Origin: an uncultured Bacteroidales bacterium
Lineage (GTDB): Bacteria; Bacteroidota; Bacteroidia; Bacteroidales; FEN-979
Reading direction: 5' to 3'
DNA: 36,710 nucleotides
Assembly (NCBI GenBank): GCA_903887775.1
Contig: CAISRB010000021.1
Span: forward strand, 1 to 36,710
Shown here one piece after another: positions 1,432 through 25,516 of the stretch (position 1 is the first letter of the stretch; every line of letters starts with the position of its first letter). The translations under genes and the position numbers were made by a program. The notes under the pieces were generated by a model, which was not told the origin of the DNA, made no database searches, and saw only the letters and a program-made list of their open reading frames with translations.

Positions 1432-2754
1432 ATGTCCAAAATTGTAGCAATAGTAGGCCGCCCGAATGTGGGTAAAAGCACTCTTTTCAACCGTTTGGTG
1501 GGACAGAGAGAAGCCATTGTCGACCCCACCAGCGGAGTAACCCGCGACAGGCATTATGGAGTGTCGGATTGGAACGGGCATCAGTTTTCGGTGATCGACA
1601 CAGGAGGTTATGTTGACAATTCAGAGGATATCTACGAATCGGAGATCAAAAAACAGGTAAATCTGGCGATTGACGAATCTGATATCATACTTTTCATTGT
1701 GGATGCCAGGGAAGGAATCACTCCCATGGATGAAGATGTGGCGAATATCCTCCGCCGTTGCGGTAAGAAAGTTATTCTTGTTCCGAACAAGATCGACAGT
1801 GTAAAGCAGGCCAATATGGTCCATGAGTTCTATTCTCTTGGCTTACCTGAAATGTTTGGGATCTCAGCCGTTAACGGAAGCGGGACAGGGGAGCTCCTTG
1901 ACGCGGTCACAGCGCTTTTCCCTCCACTTGATGAGTCATCCGCTGAAAATAATGATGAATTACCTGATCTTCCGAGAATAGCTATCGTTGGCCGCCCCAA
2001 CGCCGGTAAATCCTCCCTGATCAATGTCCTTCTCGGCAACGACCGTAACATTGTTACTCCTTTGCCGGGAACCACCCGTGATTCCATCCATTCAGCATAC
2101 AACTCCTTTGGACTGAATTTCCTGCTTGTCGATACGGCAGGGATACGTAAAAAAGGCAAGGTCAAGGAGGATATTGAATTCTATTCGGTCATGCGCGCCA
2201 TCCGTTCTATAGAGAACAGCGATGTTTGTATCCTGATGATAGATGCTGAACGGGGTTTCGAGGCCCAGGATCTGAATATTTTCCATATCATAGACCGCAA
2301 CCATAAGGGCCTGGTCATTCTTGTCAATAAATGGGACCTGGTTGAGAAACAGACCAATACGCATAAGGAATTTGAAGAATCCATAAGGGAGCAAACTGCT
2401 CCTTTCCGTGATATTCCTATCGTATTCACTTCTGTTACTCAAAAACAGCGCATCCTGAAAGCGATGGAGACTGCAGTGGCCGTCTATAAAAACAGGATGC
2501 GGCAAATCCCCACGCGTGAACTTAATGACTTCATCCTTCCTGTTATTGAAAACACGCCTCCTCCGGCGGTTAAAGGAAAATATGTGCGCATCAAATATGC
2601 CACCCAGCTACCAACGGCATTTCCGTCATTCGTGTTTTTCTGTAATCATCCACAATACTTAAAAGACCCTTACCGTCGTTTTATTGAGAACAAATTAAGG
2701 GAACGATTTGATTTCACAGGGGCTCCCATCGAGGTATTTTTCCGGCAAAAATGA
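1432..2754 (+). CDS. der: Ribosome biogenesis GTPase Der (EngA)
   Basis: Der has two GTPase domains in tandem and a C-terminal KH-like domain, and acts in 50S subunit assembly. The 440-aa product has the usual length. The first G domain starts at once (GRPNVGKST, residues 8-16; DTGG; NKID). An acidic linker (about 163-178) leads to the second (GRPNAGKSS from about 186; DTAG; NKWD). The end (residues about 350-440) holds the KH-like domain with FCNHPQYL and a final FRQK, normal for the family. It lies between era and an S4-domain gene, and its stop overlaps the next start by 4 bases (ATGA, 2751-2754), so the two are translationally coupled. Confidence 0.97.
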
Positions 2755-3137
2755 AACAAGGGGTCAGGATCGATAAATGGTTATGGGCGGTGCGTCTTTT
2801 TAAAACCCGAAACCAGGCAACAGAAGCATGCAGATCCGGGAAAGTCAGGATAGACGGGCAAATTATTAAGCCCTCACGGGAAGTGAAGCCTGAGGATGAG
2901 ATCAGTATTTCTCATCAGTCCCTGACCAGAACGGTAAAAGTGATCCAGGCTCTTGAAAACAGGGTTGGTGCGCCGCTGGTCCCGGAATATATGCAGGATC
3001 TCACTCCTGAAAGTGAATTTTTGAGGGTTAAAATGATGAAGGCGGTAAATTTTGAATACCGGGATCCCGGCACCGGAAGACCCACTAAACGCCACAGAAG
3101 GGAAATAGAAGTGCTGAAAAAATATCTGGGGGAATGA
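2751..3137 (+). CDS. S4-domain RNA-binding protein (Hsp15/HslR-like)
   Basis: A small (128 aa), basic protein. The N-terminal half is a clear S4 domain: [15 protein letters not shown] (residues 6-20), then a helix and the loop [23 protein letters not shown]. Family members of this length resemble E. coli HslR (Hsp15), which binds stalled 50S subunits. The C-terminal part is charged ([19 protein letters not shown]) and may contact RNA. The gene overlaps der upstream and tonB downstream, each by an ATGA. The S4 assignment is firm; the exact role is inferred from the family. Confidence 0.85.
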
Positions 3138-3901
3138 AGACAAACCGTGTAATTGACCTGTTCGACATTGTTTTCACTGGAAGGAACCAGGCATATGGCG
3201 GTTATGTACTCAGGAAAAGTTATCCCAGAAACCTCCTTGTTTCCACCATCCTGGCCGTCTGCTTCGCTGTAATCATCGTTTTAACCCCCTTTTTGTACTT
3301 TTATTTTGAGCCGTTGCCGCTTCTTGACGACGACATGATCACGGATGTGGAATATTTCAGCGTTATGCCTCCTCCCAATGATGACGTGAACAAACTGGCC
3401 GGCTCATTGCCTGAGCAGGCCCCGGAAGAGATGGCTCCTGTGGTCACTGATTCGGTGACCGAAGAGAAACTGAAGCCTGTTGAAGACAAACCGCCTGTTG
3501 AAGAGGAAGAACGACCGGCTGATTCGGCAGGAAAAAGCCCCGGGAATGCTTTAAGCGGTTATGGAACCGGAGATGCAGACGGCTTAGTCTCGATGATCGA
3601 TGTATATCCCAGGTTTCCTGGAGGCGATGATGCAAGGCTTTGGTTCCTGCGGAAAAATGTCAGGTATCCTGAATCTGCAATGAAAGCCGGAACTCAGGGA
3701 GTAATTGTTGTAGTATTCATTATTGAAACTGATGGCTCAGTTTCAAATATCGAGGTGACGAAAGCGATTGGGGGAGGCTGTGATGAAGAGGCCATCAGGG
3801 TTGTTAAACTCATGCCCAGATGGGAACCGGCAAGACGTAATGGAAAAGCTGTACGCGTGGTCATAAGGATGCCCATTGTGTTTAAAATGCCCGGGAAATA
3901 A
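3134..3901 (+). CDS. Energy transducer TonB
   Basis: TonB carries proton-motive energy from ExbBD in the inner membrane to outer-membrane TonB-dependent transporters. The 255-aa product has a short cytoplasmic N-terminus, one membrane segment (about residues 33-56), an acidic and Pro-rich periplasmic linker (about 75-145), and a Bacteroidota-style TonB C-terminal domain: YPRFPGGDDARLWFLRKNVRYPE, an IETDGSVSNIEVTKAIGGG stretch and EEAIRVVKLMPRWEPARRNGK. The start overlaps the S4 gene stop (ATGA). No exbB or exbD is nearby, which is common for one of several TonB paralogues. A hairpin follows the stop. Confidence 0.92.
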   Translation: MKTNRVIDLFDIVFTGRNQAYGGYVLRKSYPRNLLVSTILAVCFAVIIVLTPFLYFYFEPLPLLDDDMITDVEYFSVMPPPNDDVNKLAGSLPEQAPEEMAPVVTDSVTEEKLKPVEDKPPVEEEERPADSAGKSPGNALSGYGTGDADGLVSMIDVYPRFPGGDDARLWFLRKNVRYPESAMKAGTQGVIVVVFIIETDGSVSNIEVTKAIGGGCDEEAIRVVKLMPRWEPARRNGKAVRVVIRMPIVFKMPGK

Positions 3902-9324: not shown

Positions 9325-12300
9325 CTAGGCCTTGCGGGCTTTCTTTAACTGCCCGAAATATTCAATGGTTTTTCGTAAGGTATTATGCAGAAGCGCCAGG
9401 TAGAGAATAATTGACATCAACCACAGGGCAGCAATATTAAACCATAAGGTATTTACCGCCAGCGGCCCAATGAACTTCACCGGAGCATAAAAATGGGATC
9501 TTCCTGTTTTTGACTCAGGGTCCAGAAACACAGGGTCTTTTTTCCTGATCAGTTTGTCTTTTCCTTGTATGACCTTATCGGATGAAGCAGAGTTCAGCAC
9601 CAGGTCGGCAAGATTTTCATTATAATAGTCCTTTTTAAGCGTATAAACCGCATCCTGCCCTATTTCATTCACCAGTTTCTCGTATATGGCATCATGCCTT
9701 GCACTTGCCTTGTTAAGTTGTGCCGAGAATGCAATGCTCAGTGAATCCAGGTACGACCTGAGCCGTGTATTCATCTCATCGGTAAGTCCTTCCGGAGTGA
9801 TCTGTGATACAAACATACCGGGTCTGAAACCAGCCTCTTTTTCCAGCTCCGGGATCTCGTTCCTGACGATCCGCAGATTTTGCAGGGTCCTGTCCCGGTT
9901 TTTCTGCTTTACGATATTCATCCTCGAATCGTCTAGCATTCCCTGCAAGGCCGGGATACAGAAAGCAGTTAAATAAGAATACTTTGAGATTTCCTTATCA
10001 GACTGGTAGAACCTTTGTTCGTATCTGTTATTGCTGAATTGTTCAACAGCCATAGCTTCGAAACTCCACCGGGAAGCCATCATGTCGCCAACAAACGGAA
10101 CATTCACACGTGAGCTTATTGAGGGGTTGAGGTTGTCGAACGATACCACTGTTCCGCTGAGAAGCAGCTGAGGCACCAGTATGAAGGGAATAAGGATATA
10201 AATGGCAACGATGGAGTCAAGTCCCGATGAGATATTCAAACCAGCCATATTGGCAAAACAGGAAACGCTGAAAAGAATAAGCCAGTAAGCAATCGTCATA
10301 CCTTTAATATCCAGAATCCAGTTCCCGATCAGCACATAAAGTAAAGTCTGGATGGCTGAAAGTACAAATAACAATATGATCTTTGAATTGAGGTAGCTGC
10401 TTCGGCTTAAGTGAAGAAAAGCCTCCCGCTTGAGTATCCTTCGGTCTCTGAAGATCTCCTCGGCGCTAACCATCATACCAAGAAAAAGCGCCACTACCAC
10501 GCTCATGAACATATAGGCAATAAGGTTCTTATTCCCACCGAAAAAATAGGTTTCACTGCCCGAATACCTTGTGAGGTAGGCCAGCAAAGCAGCAAGGAAA
10601 GGCGCTTCAAATAAATTGATGACCAGGTACTGGGTGTTCGTGACCTTTGTGAGCAGGTTACGTATGCCAAAAATGCTGAACTGCTTCAAACTCCCGGGTA
10701 CCTTGAAAAAATTCAGGGGGAGCTGCTGTTTCCGCGATGAAACTGTCAGCTTCGGCTGAATGTTCTTCCGGAACTGCTCGTACCACTCTGTTGGCGTGAC
10801 CTTACGGTTGACGGTCAGTTTCCCATACTCCGACACGGTTTTCGCCTCAGTGATCTGCAGGATTTGCTCAGGGTTCACATACCCGCAGTTCTGGCATTCA
10901 CTTTCGGTTGGATTGACGTGATTGCTGAGGGTCTTGAAGTAAGAAATGGCATCGATAGGGTTGCCGTAATAGATGGGGAATCCCCCTTTGTCCATGACGA
11001 GCAAAATGTCGAATAGTTTATAAATATCTGATGAAGGCTGATGAATATTCACCACAACAAGCCGTCCTTTCAGGGTTTGTTCCTTCAGAAGCAGCATCAC
11101 AAGCTCGGAATCCATCGATGAAAGTCCGGATGTTGGTTCATCGACGAACAGCACCGAGGGTTCACGAATCAGCTCCAGGGCTATATTCAGCCTTTTGCGC
11201 TGCCCCCCGCTGATGAATTTGTTCAGAGGATCGCCCACCCTGAGATCCTTGATCCCGATCAGTCCGATATCATTTAGCACTTTCAGAACAGCCTTCATCA
11301 GCTGCCTTGGGCTGAAATCCCTGAAACAGAGTTTGGCGTTGAAGTAGAGGTTTTCGAATACTGTCAATTCTTCAACAAGAAGGTCATCCTGGGGAACGAA
11401 ACCGATGACACCTTCGAGTTTCTCATTGTCGGTTCCGAGTTTGTAACCGTTAATGAGGATCTCTCCGCTGCGAAGTTGAAGACTGCCGTTAAATACATTC
11501 AGGAGGGTGGATTTGCCCACACCGCTTCCGCCCATGATACCTATCAGTTCGCCAGAATGCGCGGTGAAGCTGAACGGATGTATGCCATTGGTGCTGTTTT
11601 TAAAGCGGTATTCAATCTCATTGGCTGTAAATTCAATATCGATGGTTTCATCACCATGCAGGAACCTGGATGCGATGTCGGAATAATAAACGGGTATTAT
11701 CTTGAGATTTTTCAGGATAGCTCCGTTAGCGAGGAAAAAAGACCTGCAGGGTTGAATATTATGGCCATTCAGGTAAAGCGGGTCATTCCCGAGATAACGG
11801 GCAAAAAAGCGTCTTATGCTTGGGAAATACAACACCACGATACGCCCGTCCATATGCTCCCTGAAAAGTTTCTTCCCCCCGGGGGTTCCTGATTGCCCGT
11901 CGATGATCAGCAGATCCTGGTTCCGGATATCTTCGTGAAAGAGGTCCAGTGCAAAGTTGAGGGCATTGTTGTATTCAGAATCGGGTATGTTGAATGACGA
12001 TTTAAGCAGGCTTGTATACCTGAGCATATGCCCTGTCTCTTTCAGGCCCCGGCCGTACTCGTTACGGCATATCTCTTCAAGAAACTCGATGAACTTGATA
12101 AATACGATGAGTCGGTCAAGATAGGGGAGGTCTTTATAGATTTTTTGACAGATGACCGAGATTTTCTGCGAAATATCTATTGGAGCAGCCTCAGTTGGTT
12201 CTTCCAGTGGCTGGTGAAAGAAAAGAAGTTCATCAAAAAGTTTCAGGTACTCTTCAAGTTCCTCGCTGTTTAATTGTTCACGAAGGAAAGATCCGAGAAT

Positions 12301-12390
12301 GAGCCTGGAATTTTCAGAAGCCTGCTTCCTTGCTGTTGCCGCGACAGTGGCAAACAGCTGGACCAGGGCCATCAGAATTGGTTCGGTCAT
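9325..12390 (-). CDS. Large ABCG-like ABC transporter (ATPase fused to ABC-2 permease)
   Basis: A 1021-aa half-transporter with the ATPase before the membrane part, as in ABCG proteins. Residues 1-250 are a helical N-terminal region and a small beta-rich segment with no firm assignment. ATPase: Walker A GGSGVGKST (287-295), signature ISGGQRKR (393-400), Walker B VLFVDEPTSGL (413-423) and H-loop H450. A linker carries CxxC (C499, C502). Membrane helices lie at about 582-607, 625-645, 670-690, 700-720 and 727-748. A 230-residue, charged, probably periplasmic loop (750-975) follows, then a last helix (978-1002). Its start overlaps the stop of the lipoprotein gene (12387-12390), so the two are coupled. 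Substrate unknown; lipid or envelope export is an inference. Confidence 0.88.
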   Translation of the reverse strand: MTEPILMALVQLFATVAATARKQASENSRLILGSFLREQLNSEELEEYLKLFDELLFFHQPLEEPTEAAPIDISQKISVICQKIYKDLPYLDRLIVFIKFIEFLEEICRNEYGRGLKETGHMLRYTSLLKSSFNIPDSEYNNALNFALDLFHEDIRNQDLLIIDGQSGTPGGKKLFREHMDGRIVVLYFPSIRRFFARYLGNDPLYLNGHNIQPCRSFFLANGAILKNLKIIPVYYSDIASRFLHGDETIDIEFTANEIEYRFKNSTNGIHPFSFTAHSGELIGIMGGSGVGKSTLLNVFNGSLQLRSGEILINGYKLGTDNEKLEGVIGFVPQDDLLVEELTVFENLYFNAKLCFRDFSPRQLMKAVLKVLNDIGLIGIKDLRVGDPLNKFISGGQRKRLNIALELIREPSVLFVDEPTSGLSSMDSELVMLLLKEQTLKGRLVVVNIHQPSSDIYKLFDILLVMDKGGFPIYYGNPIDAISYFKTLSNHVNPTESECQNCGYVNPEQILQITEAKTVSEYGKLTVNRKVTPTEWYEQFRKNIQPKLTVSSRKQQLPLNFFKVPGSLKQFSIFGIRNLLTKVTNTQYLVINLFEAPFLAALLAYLTRYSGSETYFFGGNKNLIAYMFMSVVVALFLGMMVSAEEIFRDRRILKREAFLHLSRSSYLNSKIILLFVLSAIQTLLYVLIGNWILDIKGMTIAYWLILFSVSCFANMAGLNISSGLDSIVAIYILIPFILVPQLLLSGTVVSFDNLNPSISSRVNVPFVGDMMASRWSFEAMAVEQFSNNRYEQRFYQSDKEISKYSYLTAFCIPALQGMLDDSRMNIVKQKNRDRTLQNLRIVRNEIPELEKEAGFRPGMFVSQITPEGLTDEMNTRLRSYLDSLSIAFSAQLNKASARHDAIYEKLVNEIGQDAVYTLKKDYYNENLADLVLNSASSDKVIQGKDKLIRKKDPVFLDPESKTGRSHFYAPVKFIGPLAVNTLWFNIAALWLMSIILYLALLHNTLRKTIEYFGQLKKARKA

Positions 12391-13235
12391 TTGATAAAGG
12401 AATCCCTGACACTTTGTGTAAGATCGCCTATCTCTGCAGCTTTTCCCTGGGGCAGCTTCTTGTCAGCTTCCAGTCCGTAATTTGTATAAATTGCTTTAAG
12501 CTTGCTTACTTCATCACCAACCGGTTTAAGTTCGGAGTCCATGTTATATGCAGTGAGGATAGTGATCAGCTTATCAAGGTTTTCCTTCTGTTTGAAAATA
12601 ACGGTCGAGATAGCCTTGTTGTCTGCTGCAACCTGATTCAGTGAAGCAGTGAGATACAGGGCTTCTACAAACGTACCTGCAGCAACAAGCACTGCGATCT
12701 GGTTACGGTTGTTTTTACTCAGGAAATCATTGGTGCCATTAAAGATCTTTGTGACCATGTTCACCAGGGAGTCTTTATTGTTGTTGAATTTTTTAACTCT
12801 CTCGACAATACCCGGGTCATAAACACCTGCAATACCGAGATCGTTCGCAAGCTTTCCTGTACATGCTATGAATTTATTGGTTTCATCAACATAATTATAT
12901 GTTGATGAATAGGCAAGGTCGGCACTGTAAACACCAAGGTTCAGGGCTTTTGCCTTTTCGGTGGAATACTTCGTCACATTGGCCGGAGAATTGGTGATGT
13001 TAAAAATAAATCCGGCCTTTGCCCTCTGGAGCATCATCGTAACTTCAAACGGGGTGGGGAACTGGTATAGCAGATTCCTGTTTTCAGGCGAAAGGTTAAC
13101 ATCTTTCTTAATGGTATCTGCTGCTGACTGGTTGGCCTGTTTATCCTGGTTGGCCGTGTTGTTGCAGGAAGTCATCGCTAAAATTGCGCTAAGCGCCAGG
13201 AAAAGGCTCGTGAAAATTGTTCTGAATGCTTTCAT
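12387..13235 (-). CDS. Lipoprotein paired with the ABCG-like transporter
   Basis: No family recognised. The 282-aa product has a type II signal peptide with lipobox LAMTSC (Cys at residue 24), followed by a short disordered Asn/Gln/Ala-rich tether. The rest is mostly alpha-helical (about 50-282), with several hydrophobic-faced helices, for example NRNQIAVLVAAGTFVEALYL. No catalytic motif is seen. Its stop overlaps the ATG of the ABC gene, which argues for a shared job, such as a periplasmic accessory or substrate carrier of that transporter. A fair promoter lies at 13263-13292. Confidence 0.78.
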   Translation of the reverse strand: MKAFRTIFTSLFLALSAILAMTSCNNTANQDKQANQSAADTIKKDVNLSPENRNLLYQFPTPFEVTMMLQRAKAGFIFNITNSPANVTKYSTEKAKALNLGVYSADLAYSSTYNYVDETNKFIACTGKLANDLGIAGVYDPGIVERVKKFNNNKDSLVNMVTKIFNGTNDFLSKNNRNQIAVLVAAGTFVEALYLTASLNQVAADNKAISTVIFKQKENLDKLITILTAYNMDSELKPVGDEVSKLKAIYTNYGLEADKKLPQGKAAEIGDLTQSVRDSFIK

Positions 13236-17781: not shown

Positions 17782-20631
17782 ATGGATCTCTGGATAGGTG
17801 CGATGAATCTTGGTTTCCTTTATGCCTTTATGGCTTTAGGGACTTTTATCACCTACAGGTATTTCAACATAGCTGATATCACCATCGACGGGAGTTTTAC
17901 TCTGGGTGCCGCCACCGGGGCCATACTGATAGTCGACGGATGGAACCCTTTCCTCGTCCTTCCCGTATCTTTCCTGGCCGGGGCCTGCGCAGGCTTTATA
18001 ACGGGCTTTATCCACACCAGGTTCAAAATTGACGGGCTGCTTGCAGGTATCCTGGTGATGACGGGATTGTATTCGGTGAACCTCCATGTGATGGGCAAAT
18101 CGAACATCCCGCTTATGAACCACCCGACCTTCGAGACAGTTGCCGCAGGGATCAACCCGGGGCTTCACCAGGAACTCTGGACCGGCATTTTGCTCCTCGC
18201 GGTGATAATCGCAGTATGGCTGCTGCTTTCGGCCTTTCTTAAATCTGACCTTGGGCTGACCATGCTTGCTACGGGGAACAACCCTACGATGATCTCAGCA
18301 CAGGGTGTCAGTACCGACAGGATGAAGATACTGGGAATTACCCTTGCAAACGGGATGGTTGGCCTTTCGGGTATCCTGATCGCCCAGTACCAGGGCTTCG
18401 CCGATATAGGCATGGGGATAGGGTCCATTATCTACAGCCTTGCTGCGGTTATCATCGGGCAGGCGCTTTTCAGAACCCGTAAGGTTTGGCTGGCAGTCCT
18501 CGGAGTGATCCTCGGGGCTGTAATCTTTCGCCTCGCTGTGGCCCTTGCTTTGAAGTCGGGGTTTGATCCTAACGACCTTAAGATATTGACTGCCCTGTTC
18601 GTCCTGCTTACCCTTGTGATTTCAAAATCGGTGAAATCCAGGTCAGGCCAGGAAACCAGGTTGAGGGCCTGGGTCAGGAAAAACAGGAAGCTGATTGTAT
18701 TGATCCTTATCCTTGCAATCTTCGGATGGATAATTTACCTGATTGCCGGTTCAGGCAAACCTCCCACGGCAAATGAGAAAAAGGTCAGGATCGGAATCAT
18801 CATGGCCAACCATAGCAGCGTTCTTACAAAGACCCGTGATGGTTTCATGAATGAGATGAAAGAGCTTGGTTATGTCAGCGGCCGCAACTGCCTGATCTCC
18901 GAGCTGAATGCCGAAGGAGATATCCCTGCGAACAAATCAATGGTTGACAAACTTATTGCCGACAAGACCGATATTTTTGTTGCATTTTCTTCGGCTTCCA
19001 CCCAGGCAGTGGTCAATAAAGTGAAGAATAAACCCGTGGTGTTTGCCACAGTGGCCAGCCCTTTTATTCTTGGAGCAGGAAAAACACCTATTGATCATCC
19101 GGCCAATGTTACCGGGGTATATGGGCAGGCGCCCGTTGCTAAACTTCTCAGGATCCTCACGAAATTCTTCCCGGGGCCGGTCAGGATAGGGACGATATAT
19201 AACCCGGGCTACCCCAATACTCGTGTTAACCTCGGCGACCTGAAAAAAGCGGTAAAAGAATTCCCGGGGATCACCCTTGTTGAGATGAGCGTGAGCGGTA
19301 CCTCTGAAGTTCAGCAGGCTGCTCAATCCCTCGCTTCCAAAGGGATACAGGCATTTTACCTGATCACCGACCTTACGGTTTTCGATGCTTTTGAGTCGGT
19401 TCTGAAGATCTCAAAGGCAGGCAGGATTCCCATTTTCGCAAATGATGCCGATTGCCTAGAAAGGGGGGCTTTCCTGGTCTACGGCTATGAATTCTATACA
19501 AGCGGGGTGCAGGCTGCGCGGCTTGCCGACAGGATCATCCGGGGAGAATTGCCTTCGGAGATCCCTTATGAACACTATGCCCGTTGCCTCCTGGGCATTA
19601 ACCGCGACCAGGCAGTGCAGTTCGGGATGACCATCCCCGATACCCTGGTCAAAGCAGCCGAAGCGACAATGTATAAAAACAAGTATTCCAAAAAAGCATT
19701 CAGGCTGCCAGTCGGGCAGACCCAGGGTAGGGTGGCAAGGATTGCGATATTCCAGTATACAAATAATACGTTGCTTAACCGTACAGTGAAGGGTATTAGG
19801 GACGTGCTTATCCGCGAGAAATATGCCAGGGGAAGAAAACTTGATATAACCTTCTACGATGCTTTGGGTGACTACGGTACCGCACAATCCATTGCGAAAG
19901 ATATTATTTCAAAGGATTTCGATTACATAGTAACCACATCCACCCTCGCGATGCAGACTCTTGCTGCTCATAATAAAAAAGTGCCACATGTGTTCTGTGC
20001 TGTTACGGACCCTATAAAATCAGGGGTTGCCAGGTCTCTGGACGATCACCAGGCCAATCTGACAGGCCTTGCAACGCCACAGCCGGTTGCAGCCACGATA
20101 CACCTGATGAGGACTCTCCTGCCAAAAGCCAGGAAAGTCGGAATGATTTGGACCATCTCGGAGATCAACTCGGAAATATGTACCAAATGGGCGAGGGAAG
20201 CTTGTGCAAAGGAAGGTTTCGTTCTCATCGAAAAAACGATCACAAGCACGGGTGAGGTCAATGAGGCTGTAAAATCACTCATATCTTCAGGAATAGATAT
20301 CTTTTTTATGTCGGGCGATGTGGCTGTATCCCAGGCTCTGCCTGTATTGAGCCGCATCATGCAGGACGTAAGAATACCATTTTTCAGTAATTGCTCTGAT
20401 GATATTTATTCAGGCACGATGGTGAGCCTCGGAGCCAGTTATTATGATGTGGGGAAGAAAGCTGCAGGAATACTTCTGGGTGTCATGGATGGCGCAAGCC
20501 CTGTTGATATACCGATCCAGATTTATGTTCCTAAAACCCTTGCCATTAATCTTGCTTTGGCCAGGAAATTTCAAATCCTGATCCCTGATTCGGTACTTCA
20601 GAAAGCAGTAATTAAACTTGAAAAATATTGA
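17782..20631 (+). CDS. ABC permease fused to two tandem TrpX-like substrate-binding domains
   Basis: A 949-aa fusion. Residues 1-282 are a membrane permease of the LivH/TrpY-like type, with about eight helices and motifs TYRYFNIADITIDGSFTLGAA and GLSGILIAQYQGFADIGMG. Residues 302-323 are an extra membrane helix that places the rest outside. Residues 335-625 form the first substrate-binding domain (VRIGIIMANHSS, then GYVSGRNC). Residues 650-945 form the second (VARIAIFQYTNNTLLNRTVKGIRDVL). Both resemble the ABC_sub_bind family (TrpX-like, linked to Trp/Tyr or other small ligands), and they differ considerably from each other. Normally these are separate lipoproteins. The gene ends with TGA inside the TTG start of the ATPase gene. 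Confidence 0.9.
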   Translation: MDLWIGAMNLGFLYAFMALGTFITYRYFNIADITIDGSFTLGAATGAILIVDGWNPFLVLPVSFLAGACAGFITGFIHTRFKIDGLLAGILVMTGLYSVNLHVMGKSNIPLMNHPTFETVAAGINPGLHQELWTGILLLAVIIAVWLLLSAFLKSDLGLTMLATGNNPTMISAQGVSTDRMKILGITLANGMVGLSGILIAQYQGFADIGMGIGSIIYSLAAVIIGQALFRTRKVWLAVLGVILGAVIFRLAVALALKSGFDPNDLKILTALFVLLTLVISKSVKSRSGQETRLRAWVRKNRKLIVLILILAIFGWIIYLIAGSGKPPTANEKKVRIGIIMANHSSVLTKTRDGFMNEMKELGYVSGRNCLISELNAEGDIPANKSMVDKLIADKTDIFVAFSSASTQAVVNKVKNKPVVFATVASPFILGAGKTPIDHPANVTGVYGQAPVAKLLRILTKFFPGPVRIGTIYNPGYPNTRVNLGDLKKAVKEFPGITLVEMSVSGTSEVQQAAQSLASKGIQAFYLITDLTVFDAFESVLKISKAGRIPIFANDADCLERGAFLVYGYEFYTSGVQAARLADRIIRGELPSEIPYEHYARCLLGINRDQAVQFGMTIPDTLVKAAEATMYKNKYSKKAFRLPVGQTQGRVARIAIFQYTNNTLLNRTVKGIRDVLIREKYARGRKLDITFYDALGDYGTAQSIAKDIISKDFDYIVTTSTLAMQTLAAHNKKVPHVFCAVTDPIKSGVARSLDDHQANLTGLATPQPVAATIHLMRTLLPKARKVGMIWTISEINSEICTKWAREACAKEGFVLIEKTITSTGEVNEAVKSLISSGIDIFFMSGDVAVSQALPVLSRIMQDVRIPFFSNCSDDIYSGTMVSLGASYYDVGKKAAGILLGVMDGASPVDIPIQIYVPKTLAINLALARKFQILIPDSVLQKAVIKLEKY

Positions 20632-21440
20632 TCGAGCTAAAAGACATAACGGTCCGTTTCAACCGTGGTTCAGTTGACGAAGTGCTTGCACTTAACAATG
20701 TCAGCCTGACGATAGGTGAAAGCGAGTTTGTGACGGTGATCGGCACAAACGGCTCAGGCAAATCTACACTGCTGAACCTCATCGCAGGTGATATTGTGCC
20801 TGATGAAGGAAAGGTTATTCTTGACGGTAAAGATGTGACACGCTGGCCGGCATACCGCCGGGCCTTTATTCTTTCCAGGGTATTCCAGAATCCATACCTC
20901 AGCACGGCCCCCAATATGACTATTGCCGAAAATCTTTTAATGGCGTGGTTCCGCGGGAAAAACCGCTACCCGAAATTCAGCCTAAGCAAGACCCTGCTTA
21001 AAGAATTCAGGCAAAGACTGGCCGATCTCGAGATGAACCTCGAAGACAGGATAACCAATACGGCGGGGACCCTGTCGGGCGGACAAAGGCAGGCTGTCAC
21101 CCTGCTCATGGCTGTTTTGGTAAAACCCAGGATACTTTTACTCGATGAGCATACTGCAGCCCTTGACCCCAAGTCGGCTGCGCAGGTTATTAAACTCACA
21201 GGAAAATTCGTGTCTTCTTACGGGCTCACTTCGCTCATGGTCACCCATGCGATGAAACAGGCTCTCGAAATGGGAACACGAATAATTATGATGCACAGGG
21301 GCCGGATCATCTCCGATATTCCTTCTAAAGATAAGGAATTGCTTACAGTCGAAGACCTGCTTCATAAGTTTGACAATATAAGAAAGAAGGAAAAACTTAC
21401 GCAGGAGATGCTCGCCAATTTCAAAAGACAATACGCGTAA
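20628..21440 (+). CDS. ABC transporter ATP-binding protein (partner of the fused permease)
   Basis: A 270-aa ATPase with Walker A GTNGSGKST (39-47), Q-loop VFQNPYLS, signature LSGGQRQ (149-155), Walker B ILLLDEHTAALD (169-180) and H207 in MVTHAMK. It resembles TrpZ/LivF-like subunits encoded with TrpX/TrpY systems. The start is a TTG at 20628 that overlaps the upstream stop (TTGA); it gives the expected MIELKDITVRF and no ATG fits. The C-terminus after 230 is a short helical tail. It is the last gene of the five-gene operon; a GTAC heptamer repeat and an AAAAGCG-like tract follow. Confidence 0.93.
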   Translation: MIELKDITVRFNRGSVDEVLALNNVSLTIGESEFVTVIGTNGSGKSTLLNLIAGDIVPDEGKVILDGKDVTRWPAYRRAFILSRVFQNPYLSTAPNMTIAENLLMAWFRGKNRYPKFSLSKTLLKEFRQRLADLEMNLEDRITNTAGTLSGGQRQAVTLLMAVLVKPRILLLDEHTAALDPKSAAQVIKLTGKFVSSYGLTSLMVTHAMKQALEMGTRIIMMHRGRIISDIPSKDKELLTVEDLLHKFDNIRKKEKLTQEMLANFKRQYA

Positions 21441-21523: not shown

Positions 21524-22012
21524 TTAAAATCTGTAGATATAGACCATCTTCGCATCGTTGTCCTTGTAATAATCGCTGATCTCTGCTTCGAGCTTATAGC
21601 CGAAGTTCAGGTAAAATTTACGCGTCGGAGTATACTTCTCAAGACCTGAGGTTTCAGCTATCACATATTTCCCGCCAAGTTCCCTGATGATCCGGTGTGT
21701 TTCTTCGAGAATAATTTTGCCTATTCCTTGTCCGCGGTAATCATTATGGGTAATGATCCAGAACAGATCATAACCGGCTTCAGTGCCACTAATATGGCCG
21801 TAACATGTATATGAAACGGGTTTGCCGTCAACTTCGGCAAACAGGAATTTGTACCCGCTGTGTTCCCCGTCTATCAGGGCTTCCTCAACAAGTTCGACCG
21901 CGACAGGGATTTCGAAATCATAGAAGAATCCTGTTGATTCGGCCATTTCTCTCACTGCCGAAACATCTCCGGGCAGTACGTTGTGGCGGTAAGTAAGTTT
22001 AAGTTTTTCCAT
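21524..22012 (-). CDS. GNAT-family N-acetyltransferase
   Basis: A 162-aa protein with a single GNAT fold. The acetyl-CoA pyrophosphate loop is DYRGQGIGKIIL (91-102), preceded by strand YDLFWIITH and followed by KYVIAETSGLEKYTPTRKFYLNFGYKLEAEISDYY, a typical motif B end with Tyr near the active site. It is last in a minus-strand run with lysine 2,3-aminomutase and two ATP-grasp ligases, 54 bases after the second ligase gene. In archaea, aminomutase plus acetyltransferase (AblA/AblB) make N-epsilon-acetyl-beta-lysine, so acetylation of beta-lysine or a product built from it is a reasonable guess. An 8-bp perfect inverted repeat (21515-21522 with 21533-21540) spans the stop codon. Confidence 0.88.
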   Translation of the reverse strand: MEKLKLTYRHNVLPGDVSAVREMAESTGFFYDFEIPVAVELVEEALIDGEHSGYKFLFAEVDGKPVSYTCYGHISGTEAGYDLFWIITHNDYRGQGIGKIILEETHRIIRELGGKYVIAETSGLEKYTPTRKFYLNFGYKLEAEISDYYKDNDAKMVYIYRF

Positions 22013-22066
22013 ATCGGGCTATCTGAATGCTACTTCAATAAATAAACTGTTCTCTGCTTCAGGGAA

Positions 22067-23062
22067 TTATTTCATTCGATCAGTCAATGGATGGCCTAAA
22101 GCATTTTCTACGATGCGCCTGATAACTTCGGTTTGATCCATACCTGCCATCTGGGAAGCAGCCATGAACCCGCCGGAACCCGAAAGACAGGGATTCGCAT
22201 TGATATCAATGACATAAGGATTTGAGTTGTGGTCGATCCTGAAGTCGAGACGCACATATCCTTTCAGGCCCAGCTTATTCCAGGTTTTTTTACAGATCTG
22301 TTTCATCTTGAGCTGTAAGGATTTATTAAGATTTTCAACTTCAAATGTTCTCTGGGTGTTCAGGTATTCAAAAGAATCTTCCTTCCATTTCGCGGTATAT
22401 CCCATAATCTTTGGCTTACCTTCAGGGAAATTCAAAAAATTCATCTCTGCAAACGGCAGGACTTCCGGTCCCTTCTTCCCCCCGATAATTGAAATGTTAA
22501 ATTCCCTGCCTTCAATAAATTCCTCAATGAAATAGTAATCTGCGTTCTTTTGGCTTAAAGACTTTATGAATTTTTTGTCATTGCCACTGAATACGTTTTC
22601 CTCATCAAGCCCCAGCGAACCCTCTTCCCAGATTGGTTTAAGGATATATTTTTTTTCACTGTCAAATTTCCCGGGTTCGTTGAGATCCATCCATGGAGGG
22701 GTAGGAATGCCAAGCCTTTTCATCTCGATCTTTGCTCTTAGCTTATTCGCGGCAAAGAACAGGGGGACCAGGGGCGATCCGGTAAATGGTATTTCAAGAT
22801 AATTGTAAACTGCCGCCGGAAAATAAACAAATTCTCCTCTGTTAAGAATGGTTTCAACCAGGTTGAATATAAAACAGGGTTTTATTTTCCTGATAGTATC
22901 GAGTGTCTTCTGGAGGTTCAGGTCCACCTGATCGGTCAGGACAGTGAAATTCAGTTCTTCGAGGGCTGTCTTAACTATTTCGACCTGCTCGAGAACATCA
23001 AGTTCATCTTCTGTAGGTTTCTCCGAAAGCCTGTTATAAAGGATTAAAGCGGTTTCTTTCAT
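22067..23062 (-). CDS. Divergent ATP-grasp ligase (Ddl-like), second copy
   Basis: A 331-aa ATP-grasp enzyme distantly like D-Ala-D-Ala ligase. The nucleotide-binding Lys is probably K142 (YILKPIWEEGSLGL). Metal ligands are in RLDFRID (D273) and VIDINANPCLSG (D286, N288), where the usual Glu of EVNxxPG is Asp. The N-terminal third (FIFNLVE, then YLEIPFTGSP) matches the Ddl-like pre-ATP domain. It shares little direct sequence with the neighbouring ligase at 23079-24056, so they are probably not a recent duplication and may act on different substrates. It starts 16 bases after that gene and likely forms an amide bond with an amino acid or beta-lysine. A peptidoglycan role is unlikely. Confidence 0.85.
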   Translation of the reverse strand: MKETALILYNRLSEKPTEDELDVLEQVEIVKTALEELNFTVLTDQVDLNLQKTLDTIRKIKPCFIFNLVETILNRGEFVYFPAAVYNYLEIPFTGSPLVPLFFAANKLRAKIEMKRLGIPTPPWMDLNEPGKFDSEKKYILKPIWEEGSLGLDEENVFSGNDKKFIKSLSQKNADYYFIEEFIEGREFNISIIGGKKGPEVLPFAEMNFLNFPEGKPKIMGYTAKWKEDSFEYLNTQRTFEVENLNKSLQLKMKQICKKTWNKLGLKGYVRLDFRIDHNSNPYVIDINANPCLSGSGGFMAASQMAGMDQTEVIRRIVENALGHPLTDRMK

Positions 23063-23078
23063 GCAGGGAGTTATAGGG

Positions 23079-24056
23079 CTAAATTTTCATCCGTTTTTGT
23101 GCCGATACCATGATCATTTGGATCAATTGCTTATACCCGATTCCCTGGAGTCTGCAAATAATTGGGAGATCCGAATGTACCGGATTCAGTCCGGCCAGCG
23201 GATTAACCTCCATGAACCCGGGAACCCCATTCTGATCGAGGCGGAGGTCGACTCTTCCCCCATCCCTGCAACTAAGCACCTTCCATGCCGAAAGGGCGAC
23301 ATCTTCGCAGGCCCTGGCAATGGGTTCATCGACGATGCGGTAAGTAATACGGTTTTCATAGAATTCCTTGTTCAGGTATGAATAGCCGTGTGCTTCAGCC
23401 TGTTCTGTAAATATTACTTCCATTGTTCCAAGGCTGCGTGCATCTTCGCCGGTGCCGACAATCGCAACTGTAAATTCCCTGCCGGGAAGGTAGGTTTCGA
23501 TGATTAGTCCCTGGGAATAGCTTGGCAGGAGCTCGAGGCAGACCTTCTCAAGTTCAGCCGGGTTGTCAACCTTGCTTTTTGCATTGATCCCTTTGCCTGT
23601 GCCTTCGGCAACCGGTTTGATGAAGAGAGGGTAAGGGAGACTTACGGAAGCTATGTCTCTCTTACTGGAAACGACAGTAAAATCAGGTGTTGGAACACCA
23701 CAATCCCTGACCACGTTTTTTGTAAGGCCCTTATGAAGAGTGAGGGCAAGGATAAGGGTATCGGAAAACGTATAGGGGATGTTATAGGCATCAAGCAGGG
23801 CGGGGACCTGGGCTTCGCGCCCTACCCCATACATGCCTTCACAGATATTGAATACCATCTCCCAGCGATCCCCTTTTGCAAGCCTGTTCACAAGCTGGCG
23901 TACATGACCGATACGATCGGTCGAATGCCCGAGATCCTGCAAAGCAGTTTCGATGGCTGCTACGGTTTCTTCTTTGTCAAATTCTGCTGTTTCTTCTTCA
24001 GAAAAACCTTCCTTCAGATAATCTGACCGCAGGTCATACGTAAGGCCGACTGTCAT
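23079..24056 (-). CDS. ATP-grasp ligase (Ddl-like), first copy
   Basis: A 325-aa ATP-grasp ligase. Pre-ATP domain: VFNICEGMYGVGREAQVPALLDA and IPYTFSDTLILALTLHKGLTK, which match the Ddl N-domain pattern. ATP-binding Lys K147 is in LFIKPVAEGTGKGI, and a second motif is ETYLPGREFTVAIVG. Metal ligands are D270 (GRVDLRLD) and E283/N285 (MEVNPLAGLNP, close to EVNTLPG of Ddl). It starts 3 bases after the aminomutase stop, so the two are almost surely co-translated. Annotation pipelines may call it D-alanine-D-alanine ligase. The context with a lysine aminomutase and a second ligase argues for a peptide-like product instead. Confidence 0.87.
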   Translation of the reverse strand: MTVGLTYDLRSDYLKEGFSEEETAEFDKEETVAAIETALQDLGHSTDRIGHVRQLVNRLAKGDRWEMVFNICEGMYGVGREAQVPALLDAYNIPYTFSDTLILALTLHKGLTKNVVRDCGVPTPDFTVVSSKRDIASVSLPYPLFIKPVAEGTGKGINAKSKVDNPAELEKVCLELLPSYSQGLIIETYLPGREFTVAIVGTGEDARSLGTMEVIFTEQAEAHGYSYLNKEFYENRITYRIVDEPIARACEDVALSAWKVLSCRDGGRVDLRLDQNGVPGFMEVNPLAGLNPVHSDLPIICRLQGIGYKQLIQMIMVSAQKRMKI

Positions 24057-24059
24057 AGG

Positions 24060-25349
24060 TCAGGAGAAATCGGGATATTGGTATTCCTTATTCTCGAAAT
24101 TCCTGAGTTTGGCATAGCCGTCTTCACCCCGGCCCAGGAAATAATCGGGCAGCAGAGGTATCTTCCCGCCACCGCCAGGTGCATCCACAACATAAGTCGG
24201 AACGGCATACCCACTGGTATGGCCCCTGAGGCCTTCCATGATCGCAAGGCCTTTCTTAATAGTTGTCCTGAAATGGCCTGAGCCCAGAACCGGGTCGCAT
24301 TGGTAGATGTAATAAGGTTTAACCCTTGCACGCAGTAATGAATGCATCAGGTTTGTCATCACCTTAATATCGTCATTGATGCCTTTCAGAAGGACAGTCT
24401 GGCTTCCAAGCGGGATCCCTGCATTGGCGAGCTTTTCGCAAGCTTCTTTCACTTCGGGGGTCAGCTCAGCTCCATGTGTAAAGTGTATGCTGAGGAATAA
24501 AGGATGGTATTTCTTCAGCATGTTCACCAGCGGGCGGGTGATACGCTGCGGCATAACCACCGGTACTTTCGTGCCAATGCGGATGATCTCCACATGAGGG
24601 ATGCTGCGCAAACGTGAAAGAAGATATTCGAGATGCAGGTCAGGCATGGTCAACGGGTCACCACCTGAGATAAGCACATCGCGGATCTCCTGATGATTCT
24701 GTATATAGTCCAGGCCGGCTTCCCAGGCCTTTACTCCAACATGGCATTTATCCGTTGCTACCATTCGCGTACGTGTGCAGTACCTGCAATAGGTAGAACA
24801 GAAACCTGTGACAAGGAACAACACCCGGTCAGGATAACGGTGAACGATATTTTCTACAGGGCTGTCATGCTCTTCTGACAGAGGATCGGCATTTTCTCCC
24901 GGATGTACGATAAATTCATCGAATACAGGAACTACGCTTTTGCGTAAGGGATCATCCGGGTTTGTCCTGTCAAGCAGGCTGATATAATAAGGAGTTATCC
25001 TCAGGGGCAACGAGTGGTTGTTGCCATCAGGTTTAACTTCATTATCGGACAGAGTGATGAACTTTGAAAGTTGCTGAATTGAGCGGGCGCTGTTCTTGAT
25101 CTGCCAATGCCAGTTATTCCAATCCTTAAGCGTCGCTTCAGGAAAGAATTCCTGTAAAAAGGCAAGAGAACGTTCAGAGGTTAATGATTTATCGCGATCT
25201 GTGCGGGACTTGAGGTATTCGTCTAGGAGAGAGGCTTCGTCTATGAAGGATGTTTTACTTGGAGGCTCTTCGTCTTCGGGGAGTTCAGGACGAGGAATGG
25301 CCAGCTTCTCGTTGGGTGATTTTTCCATTGCTGTTTTTTGAATGTTCAA
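24060..25349 (-). CDS. kamA: Lysine 2,3-aminomutase (KamA, radical SAM/PLP)
   Basis: KamA converts L-lysine to beta-lysine (3,6-diaminohexanoate) using a 4Fe-4S cluster, S-adenosylmethionine and PLP. The 429-aa chain has the radical SAM motif CSTYCRYC (C184, C188, C191), a SAM-binding GG in LISGGDPL, and the PLP lysine K396 in DAPGGGGK. The two acidic residues thought to hold the lysine side-chain amine (D293 and D330 of the Clostridium enzyme) appear as D352 (YQCDPVLGSGHFRT) and D389 (VVDAPGGGGK), which favours lysine over glutamate. The N-terminal 30 residues are Pro/Glu-rich and variable; M8 is an alternative start. It is first of four minus-strand genes (ligase, ligase, GNAT). Degradation genes of the 3-keto-5-aminohexanoate pathway are absent, which points to synthesis. 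Confidence 0.94.
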   Translation of the reverse strand: MNIQKTAMEKSPNEKLAIPRPELPEDEEPPSKTSFIDEASLLDEYLKSRTDRDKSLTSERSLAFLQEFFPEATLKDWNNWHWQIKNSARSIQQLSKFITLSDNEVKPDGNNHSLPLRITPYYISLLDRTNPDDPLRKSVVPVFDEFIVHPGENADPLSEEHDSPVENIVHRYPDRVLFLVTGFCSTYCRYCTRTRMVATDKCHVGVKAWEAGLDYIQNHQEIRDVLISGGDPLTMPDLHLEYLLSRLRSIPHVEIIRIGTKVPVVMPQRITRPLVNMLKKYHPLFLSIHFTHGAELTPEVKEACEKLANAGIPLGSQTVLLKGINDDIKVMTNLMHSLLRARVKPYYIYQCDPVLGSGHFRTTIKKGLAIMEGLRGHTSGYAVPTYVVDAPGGGGKIPLLPDYFLGRGEDGYAKLRNFENKEYQYPDFS

Positions 25350-25460
25350 TTAGTATTAATTTATAGATGTTCTTGTTAATTATAACGGATGAAGTAACGT
25401 TGAAATCTCAGATTATTATATAAAGAAAGTATTAACATTTTTATTTTCTTTTTTCGCGTA

Positions 25461-25468
25461 CAAAAATA
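25461..25468 (-). promoter_or_regulatory. Possible -7 box of the kamA operon
   Basis: TATTTTTG on the minus strand fits TAnnTTTG and would give a leader of about 108 nt before the ATG at 25349. No matching -33 box is seen. The surrounding gap (25350-25553) is very AT-rich, with no other clear signal for kamA. Confidence 0.3.
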
Positions 25469-25516
25469 CATCGCAATTAGCCTTGATTTTTATTTAATTT
25501 TGGTATTTATCATAAA

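Follow-up and report, generated by a model that had tools for sequence, protein, structure and literature searches.

A conserved aminomutase, ATP-grasp ligase and acetyltransferase cassette in Bacteroidales as a candidate operon for acetylated beta-lysine peptides

Introduction

What could a KamA-type aminomutase, two ligases with the fold of D-alanine–D-alanine ligase (Ddl) and a GNAT acetyltransferase make together? This question is raised by four adjacent minus-strand genes on a 36,710-nucleotide contig of an uncultured Bacteroidales bacterium (C21; CAISRB010000021.1), which was analysed whole and is called the window here; the genome comprises 3.83 Mb in 33 contigs. Along the minus strand, the genes encode KamA, an aminomutase of the radical S-adenosylmethionine (radical-SAM) and pyridoxal phosphate (PLP) type (24060..25328, 422 aa), the ATP-grasp amino acid ligase LIGA (23079..24056, 325 aa), a second such ligase, LIGB (22067..23062, 331 aa), and the GNAT (21524..22012, 162 aa). 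The initial annotation had described gaps of 3, 16 and 54 bases between them, and the list of open reading frames (ORFs) gave the same positions and spacing.

The initial annotation had also assigned the four enzymes to one pathway. This idea was strengthened by the conservation of the cassette, by gene fusions and by the kept lysine-site residues of KamA, and we regard a single pathway as highly probable. As to its substrates and product, sequence comparison suggests, with a probability of about 0.55, that the cassette is a four-gene operon for the non-ribosomal synthesis of an N-acetylated beta-lysine-containing peptide, either a dipeptide or a tripeptide.

Conservation of the cassette

We scanned named genomes with LIGA and obtained at least 576 loci, of which the best 80 by LIGA similarity were analysed, so that the percentages refer to close LIGA relatives. 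Gene content was determined by profile search (E ≤ 1e-5), which replaced an ORF-based neighbourhood count that had lost 14 of the 80 loci, a loss put down to spurious long ORFs. The results showed that KamA and LIGB were each present in 72 loci and GNAT in 61, and that 56 loci held all four genes; 7 of the 72 KamA matches were partial, mostly at contig ends, and the weakest (L093) scored 38 bits. Where at least 2 kb upstream and at least 5 kb downstream were available, all four genes were found in 37 of 40 loci. The record titles of the named loci include Bacteroidetes, Deltaproteobacteria (also Syntrophus, Smithella and Desulfatitalea), Planctomycetes, Aminicenantes, Acidobacteria, WOR-3, Spirochaetales, Neomarinimicrobiota and Gammaproteobacteria; almost every record is a metagenome bin, and single taxon placements may be wrong.

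Closer to the window, LIGA was found in 36 of 37 genomes of its own family (own genome included), and in the rest of the order it was strong in 3 of 24 genomes and weak in 2 more. We examined 25 of these relatives (22 from the family, 3 from the order). KamA, LIGA and LIGB occurred together in 25/25 and all four genes in 21/25, and two of the loci lacking GNAT (L059 and L063) run into the end of their contig. In a phylum sample, 67 of 198 genomes, own genome among them, had a LIGA match at E ≤ 1e-20, many of the weaker of which may be ordinary Ddl relatives. From these 67 genomes, 20 loci were chosen by hand; one (L051) belongs to the window's class, and the remaining 19 come from different classes. 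All four genes were present in 12 of the 20, ordered LIGA-LIGB-GNAT-KamA, and KamA in 16; L051 had LIGA only. Related genomes in which the four genes never stand together had been named as a finding that would speak against the one-pathway idea; the opposite was found, and its wide conservation indicates that the four genes are an evolutionary unit, beyond chance. A role as an anti-phage system was rejected, since none of the four proteins matched a PADLOC family.

KamA is a KamA-family aminomutase

Pfam identified Radical_SAM and LAM_C domains in KamA, and the protein scored 372 bits with the KamA-family model TIGR00238 against a cut-off of 199 (NCBIfam). Its only PDB sequence match at E ≤ 0.001 was 2a5h, an L-lysine 2,3-aminomutase, and a self-search of the genome at the same threshold showed a single KamA. 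In the numbering of the initial annotation, the window KamA carries cysteines 184, 188 and 191, K396, and D352 and D389; the last two had been reported as kept and are indeed both present. Across an alignment of 111 KamA rows, which left out matches of ≤300 bits or ≤1000 bases and contains some genomes twice, C184, C188, C191, D389 and K396 were found in 111/111 rows and D352 in 107/111. The CxxxCxxC motif, the PLP lysine and the family score identify the protein, by its sequence, as a KamA-family enzyme. The two aspartates are described in the literature as those that set lysine specificity, and KamA probably acts on lysine as a lysine 2,3-aminomutase.

The start of KamA needed revision. The ORF had been listed at 24060-25349 (minus strand), with 429 aa from a TTG codon. 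In the upstream-region alignment of five genus members, the ATG at 25328 is kept, and the upstream TTG is missing in at least the genus member L064; therefore, translation probably begins at ATG 25328 and not at TTG 25349.

KamA-family enzymes also serve the modification of elongation factor P (EF-P) by EpmA and EpmB and the fermentation of lysine, and beta-lysine made in the window genome could be meant for either. We consider this highly improbable. KamA fits EpmB less well than AblA (265 vs 466 bits), and the best match in the genome to the EpmA model TIGR00462 reached 233 bits, short of the cut-off of 287; the frame in which it lies (568 aa) is most likely lysyl-tRNA synthetase. For fermentation, the 3-keto-5-aminohexanoate cleavage enzyme Kce (BKACE, PF05853) had no match in the genome, and 1 of 14 control genomes matched. 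The earlier statement that degradation genes are missing therefore holds for Kce/BKACE, the single marker tested.

LIGA and LIGB are Ddl-fold ligases with replaced signatures

Both ligases matched Dala_Dala_lig_C (PF07478) in Pfam, LIGA with 88.9 bits and LIGB with 62.7 bits against a gathering score of 24. Both missed the NCBIfam cut-off for Ddl, with 150 bits for LIGA and 95 bits for LIGB vs 243 for the best model, the LIGA result covering 25 of 34 families. The AlphaFold2 model of LIGA had a predicted local distance difference test score (pLDDT) of 88.6, and its best Foldseek match was DdlB (8evy); for LIGB the pLDDT was 90.1 and the best PDB structure match was Ddl (1iow). These predicted structures confirm a Ddl fold for both proteins and say nothing on their substrates.

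The genome has a separate, canonical Ddl on contig C27 (190 bits). In an alignment with it, both ligases keep the ATP-grasp core as well as three residues of the C-terminal motifs, Arg, Glu and Asn, whose roles are known from Ddl, and the N-terminal GNSGEYEIS and HGTPGEDG motifs of Ddl are replaced in both, as judged by eye. With the core and the C-terminal Arg intact but neither the N-terminal nor the HGxxGEDG signature of Ddl preserved, LIGA and LIGB are predicted to be active ligases with a specificity other than D-Ala-D-Ala. We rejected a role of either as the peptidoglycan Ddl, given the separate gene on C27.

The same evidence bears on the proposal that the two ligases make a beta-lysine dipeptide that enters peptidoglycan or another polymer of the cell envelope. 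Their Ddl fold, with Ddl as nearest PDB structure, would suit this, as would the name of the GNAT homologue 2r7h, which its depositors labelled a putative D-alanine N-acetyltransferase. However, a canonical Ddl is present elsewhere, both Ddl motifs are replaced in both ligases, and the window cassette has an ABC transporter, convergent with it, and an alpha/beta hydrolase as its neighbours. We therefore hold an envelope function to be improbable.

GNAT, an associated amidohydrolase and natural fusions

The family profile of the cassette GNAT found 2r7h as its best PDB match, over 154 positions (E 1e-53). This likeness is one of profiles, the name of 2r7h being its depositors' label, and no function of 2r7h was found in the parts of the literature that the search covered. 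The sole NCBIfam match of the GNAT was rimI, at 35 bits and below the cut-off.

Some cassettes hold a further protein of 580-600 aa, found in 18 of the 80 named loci with a search profile built from 7 proteins of those same loci; in some of these loci it is truncated where the contig ends. The L163 protein has an acetylpolyamine amidohydrolase as its C-terminal part (PDB 9gkz, 254 bits; Pfam Hist_deacetyl, 242 bits) and a GNAT-like region as its N-terminal part (Acetyltransf_1, 26 bits against a cut-off of 21). In excerpts of PMC11532494, the bacterial enzymes that deacetylate polyamines make up cluster 4 of the deacylases. A deacetylase of the polyamine type would fit a product that ends in an amine, as one built with beta-lysine could. 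The window genome also has an unlinked homologue at C7:159923-160954, which matches the amidohydrolase part only; its neighbourhood (L172) was viewed as ORF starts, and we claim no link to the cassette.

Natural fusions connect these activities. LIGB and GNAT share one open frame in 4 loci, and in 5 loci the cassette GNAT and the further protein are joined as GNAT-amidohydrolase-GNAT. Because the activities are naturally fused, these frames provide strong evidence at the sequence level that they serve one pathway.

The presence of KamA beside an acetyltransferase recalls the archaeal recipe for an osmolyte, and the initial annotation had drawn this parallel. On this explanation, KamA and GNAT would yield N-epsilon-acetyl-beta-lysine, the methanogen osmolyte, with the ligases either turning it into a dipeptide or acting in an adjacent pathway. 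In bacteria, ablA/ablB have been proposed for Pelobacter (in excerpts of PMC3543383), and their expression has been reported for a syntrophic propionate oxidiser (in excerpts of PMC11201294). The pairing of KamA with an acetyltransferase held, but the identity with AblB did not: the AblB model TIGR03827 matched neither the GNAT nor anything else in the genome, and 5 of 14 control genomes matched, Methanosarcina acetivorans included. Moreover, the ligases are core parts of the cassette, LIGB being as frequent as KamA in the 80 loci. Because AblB is absent, the methanogen route as defined is not present here, and we rate the osmolyte explanation as unlikely, although the product itself may have an osmolyte role.

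LIGB has been exchanged within the genus

We then compared the cassette genes of genus members, some of whose sequences are partial. In L057, L058, L059, L067 and L068, identity to the window was 91-93% for KamA and 84-90% for GNAT in those that have one, against only 43-47% for LIGB and 71-72% for LIGA. In the genus members L064 and L065, by contrast, LIGB was 86-92% identical to the window.

Trees gave the same picture; they left out the long-branched L071, L078, L081 and L082 and partial sequences, and their p values are optimistic, as the tested clades were chosen with the identities already known. The trees of KamA (7 rows) and of GNAT (6 rows) recovered a monophyletic genus with 100/100 support, and in the LIGB tree (8 rows) its monophyly was rejected by the approximately unbiased (AU) test (p 5e-55). 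The window-type LIGB grouped with two other genera (L060 and L066) with 100/99 support, a grouping that was rejected for KamA (p 4e-4) and GNAT (p 1e-7). The free LIGA tree showed a pattern like that of LIGB (97/93), and the genus clade was not rejected (AU p 0.087). Each of 8 genus genomes had a single LIGB, all other matches being the adjacent LIGA; several of these genomes are incomplete (80-97%), and a second LIGB could be missing from them.

Read plainly, these comparisons indicate that an operon otherwise passed on by vertical descent, perhaps with the exception of LIGA, received a different LIGB by exchange. LIGB, the exchanged and variable gene of the cassette, is therefore likely to be the determinant of the variable part of the product.

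A proposed pathway and the evidence weighed

In the order of steps that we infer, KamA would first convert L-lysine to beta-lysine (3,6-diaminohexanoate). In a reaction like that of Ddl, LIGA and LIGB would then each use ATP to convert a carboxylate into an acyl phosphate and couple it to an amine, linking beta-lysine to one or two further amino acids, with LIGB adding the part that differs between lineages. GNAT would acetylate an amine of the LIGB substrate or product, probably a terminal amine of beta-lysine. Where the further protein is present (18/80 cassettes), its amidohydrolase domain, accompanied by the GNAT-like domain, would remove an acetyl group, either unmasking a protected amine after ligation or recycling the product. 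A wider and tentative proposal, which we think rather doubtful, is that the cassette represents a new multi-phylum class of small-molecule pathway, in which a radical-SAM enzyme supplies a beta-amino acid to a pair of Ddl-fold ligases, acetylation acts as a reversible protecting group, and LIGB exchange yields different beta-lysine peptides even within one genus.

Several observations weigh against the acetylated beta-lysine peptide pathway. Lysine 2,3-aminomutase (TIGR03820) is the top-scoring model for KamA, yet the score of 466 bits is below its cut-off of 525.4, and all five cassette KamA proteins scored (window, L033, L064, L142 and L163) missed this cut-off. The proposed lysine specificity draws on that top score and the two aspartates, and neither LIGA nor LIGB has a sequence feature pointing to beta-lysine as substrate. 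The amidohydrolase protein was found neither near the window cassette nor in loci L033-L083. Among the 40 well-flanked loci, L096 lacks KamA, L161 lacks GNAT and L139 has LIGA only, and 2 of the 25 family and order relatives (L071 and L082) have no GNAT near the ligases though the contig continues. The 80 loci are a selected sample, those nearest to LIGA, and 6 of them share LIGA DNA with genomes counted separately. Finally, LIGA may have been swapped along with LIGB, but the AU test (p 0.087) does not establish it.

The missed TIGR03820 equivalog cut-off would also fit a KamA that uses another amino acid, such as arginine or glutamate, and feeds a different beta-amino-acid peptide. In four loci (L045, L046, L047 and L052), a LIGA-like ligase adjoins a KamA whose D352 is replaced by Q, and LIGB and GNAT were not found there. 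The two of these KamA proteins that were scored (L046 and L047) fit arginine 2,3-aminomutase best, below its cut-off, which hints at a possible sister pathway with another beta-amino acid, beta-arginine. The window KamA, however, scores higher with the lysine model than with the glutamate (426 bits) or arginine (382 bits) models and keeps both aspartates, so that we see a different substrate in the window as a minor possibility and continue to favour an acetylated beta-lysine peptide.

Upstream block and neighbouring genes

Upstream of KamA, a 23-base block (25450..25472, minus strand) is identical in five genus members irrespective of the LIGB type that they carry, and it is a candidate for a shared promoter or regulator site. 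It contains TATTTTTG (25461-25468), a candidate promoter -7 box by its likeness to TAnnTTTG, the Bacteroidota -7 consensus.

On the other side of the cassette and convergent with it, a 949 aa frame at 17782-20631 fuses a BPD_transp_2 permease with two ABC_sub_bind (TrpX-like) domains and is followed by an ATPase gene (20628-21440), forming an unusual fused importer. In L064 (7779-8669) and L065 (3491-4444), a gene judged by eye to resemble the membrane domain of an ABC transporter lies on the opposite strand between LIGB and GNAT; the window has none. In L141, a major facilitator superfamily transporter (Pfam MFS_1; 2156-3547), a possible product exporter, occupies the same interval. Behind the cassette of L142 (Syntrophaceae; 9641-12628) are genes that by eye appear to encode a PhoU-type protein, a Pit phosphate transporter and a diaminopimelate-decarboxylase-like protein, and relatives of these downstream genes recur in 4 to 7 loci by an ORF-based count. 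We took the Pit-type transporter genes of Syntrophaceae as mere neighbours, and likewise RecG, which was recognised by eye from its sequence and precedes LIGA at a number of loci from other classes. At Rfam gathering scores, the sole match was a tRNA gene at 271-342 on the minus strand (RF00005, 70 bits), and no RNA family was found near the cassette.

Comparison with known systems

The cassette, its product or its function was not found in the partial texts of the literature searched; the amidoligase-neighbourhood paper of Iyer et al. 2009 may mention it. The excerpts of PMC2922099 contain no mention of KamA, beta-lysine or a deacetylase. The enzyme classes are all known, and their combination, spread and ligase exchange look new. 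A cassette kept in so many distant bacteria likely makes something useful, and its four or five enzymes offer a compact, testable system for beta-amino-acid peptides without non-ribosomal peptide synthetases. The exchange of LIGB is a natural experiment, in which near-identical KamA and GNAT with a different LIGB should give different molecules.

Several known systems resemble parts of the cassette. The C-terminal domain of the 580-600 aa protein (L163) is like the acetylpolyamine amidohydrolases of cluster 4, but it is fused to a GNAT-like domain and lies inside a KamA-ligase cassette, a fusion absent from the excerpts of PMC11532494. The AblA/AblB osmolyte pathway of methanogens likewise has a KamA-family aminomutase gene beside an acetyltransferase gene; in the cassette, however, the acetyltransferase belongs to another family than AblB, the two ATP-grasp ligases occur as regularly as KamA, and an amidohydrolase is sometimes added. 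With Ddl, the ligases share the fold, the ATP-grasp core and the C-terminal Arg, Glu and Asn; they differ in their replaced signatures, in model scores below the cut-off and in standing as two copies beside KamA, with the canonical Ddl elsewhere. The N-acetylglutaminylglutamine amide pathway synthesises its dipeptide with ATP-grasp and GNAT activities and an asparagine-synthetase-type protein. It shares with the cassette a non-ribosomal ligation and an acetylation by small stand-alone enzymes, whereas KamA and two Ddl-fold ligases are found here in place of the asparagine-synthetase-type protein. We rate the cassette as belonging with stand-alone ATP-grasp peptide synthesis.

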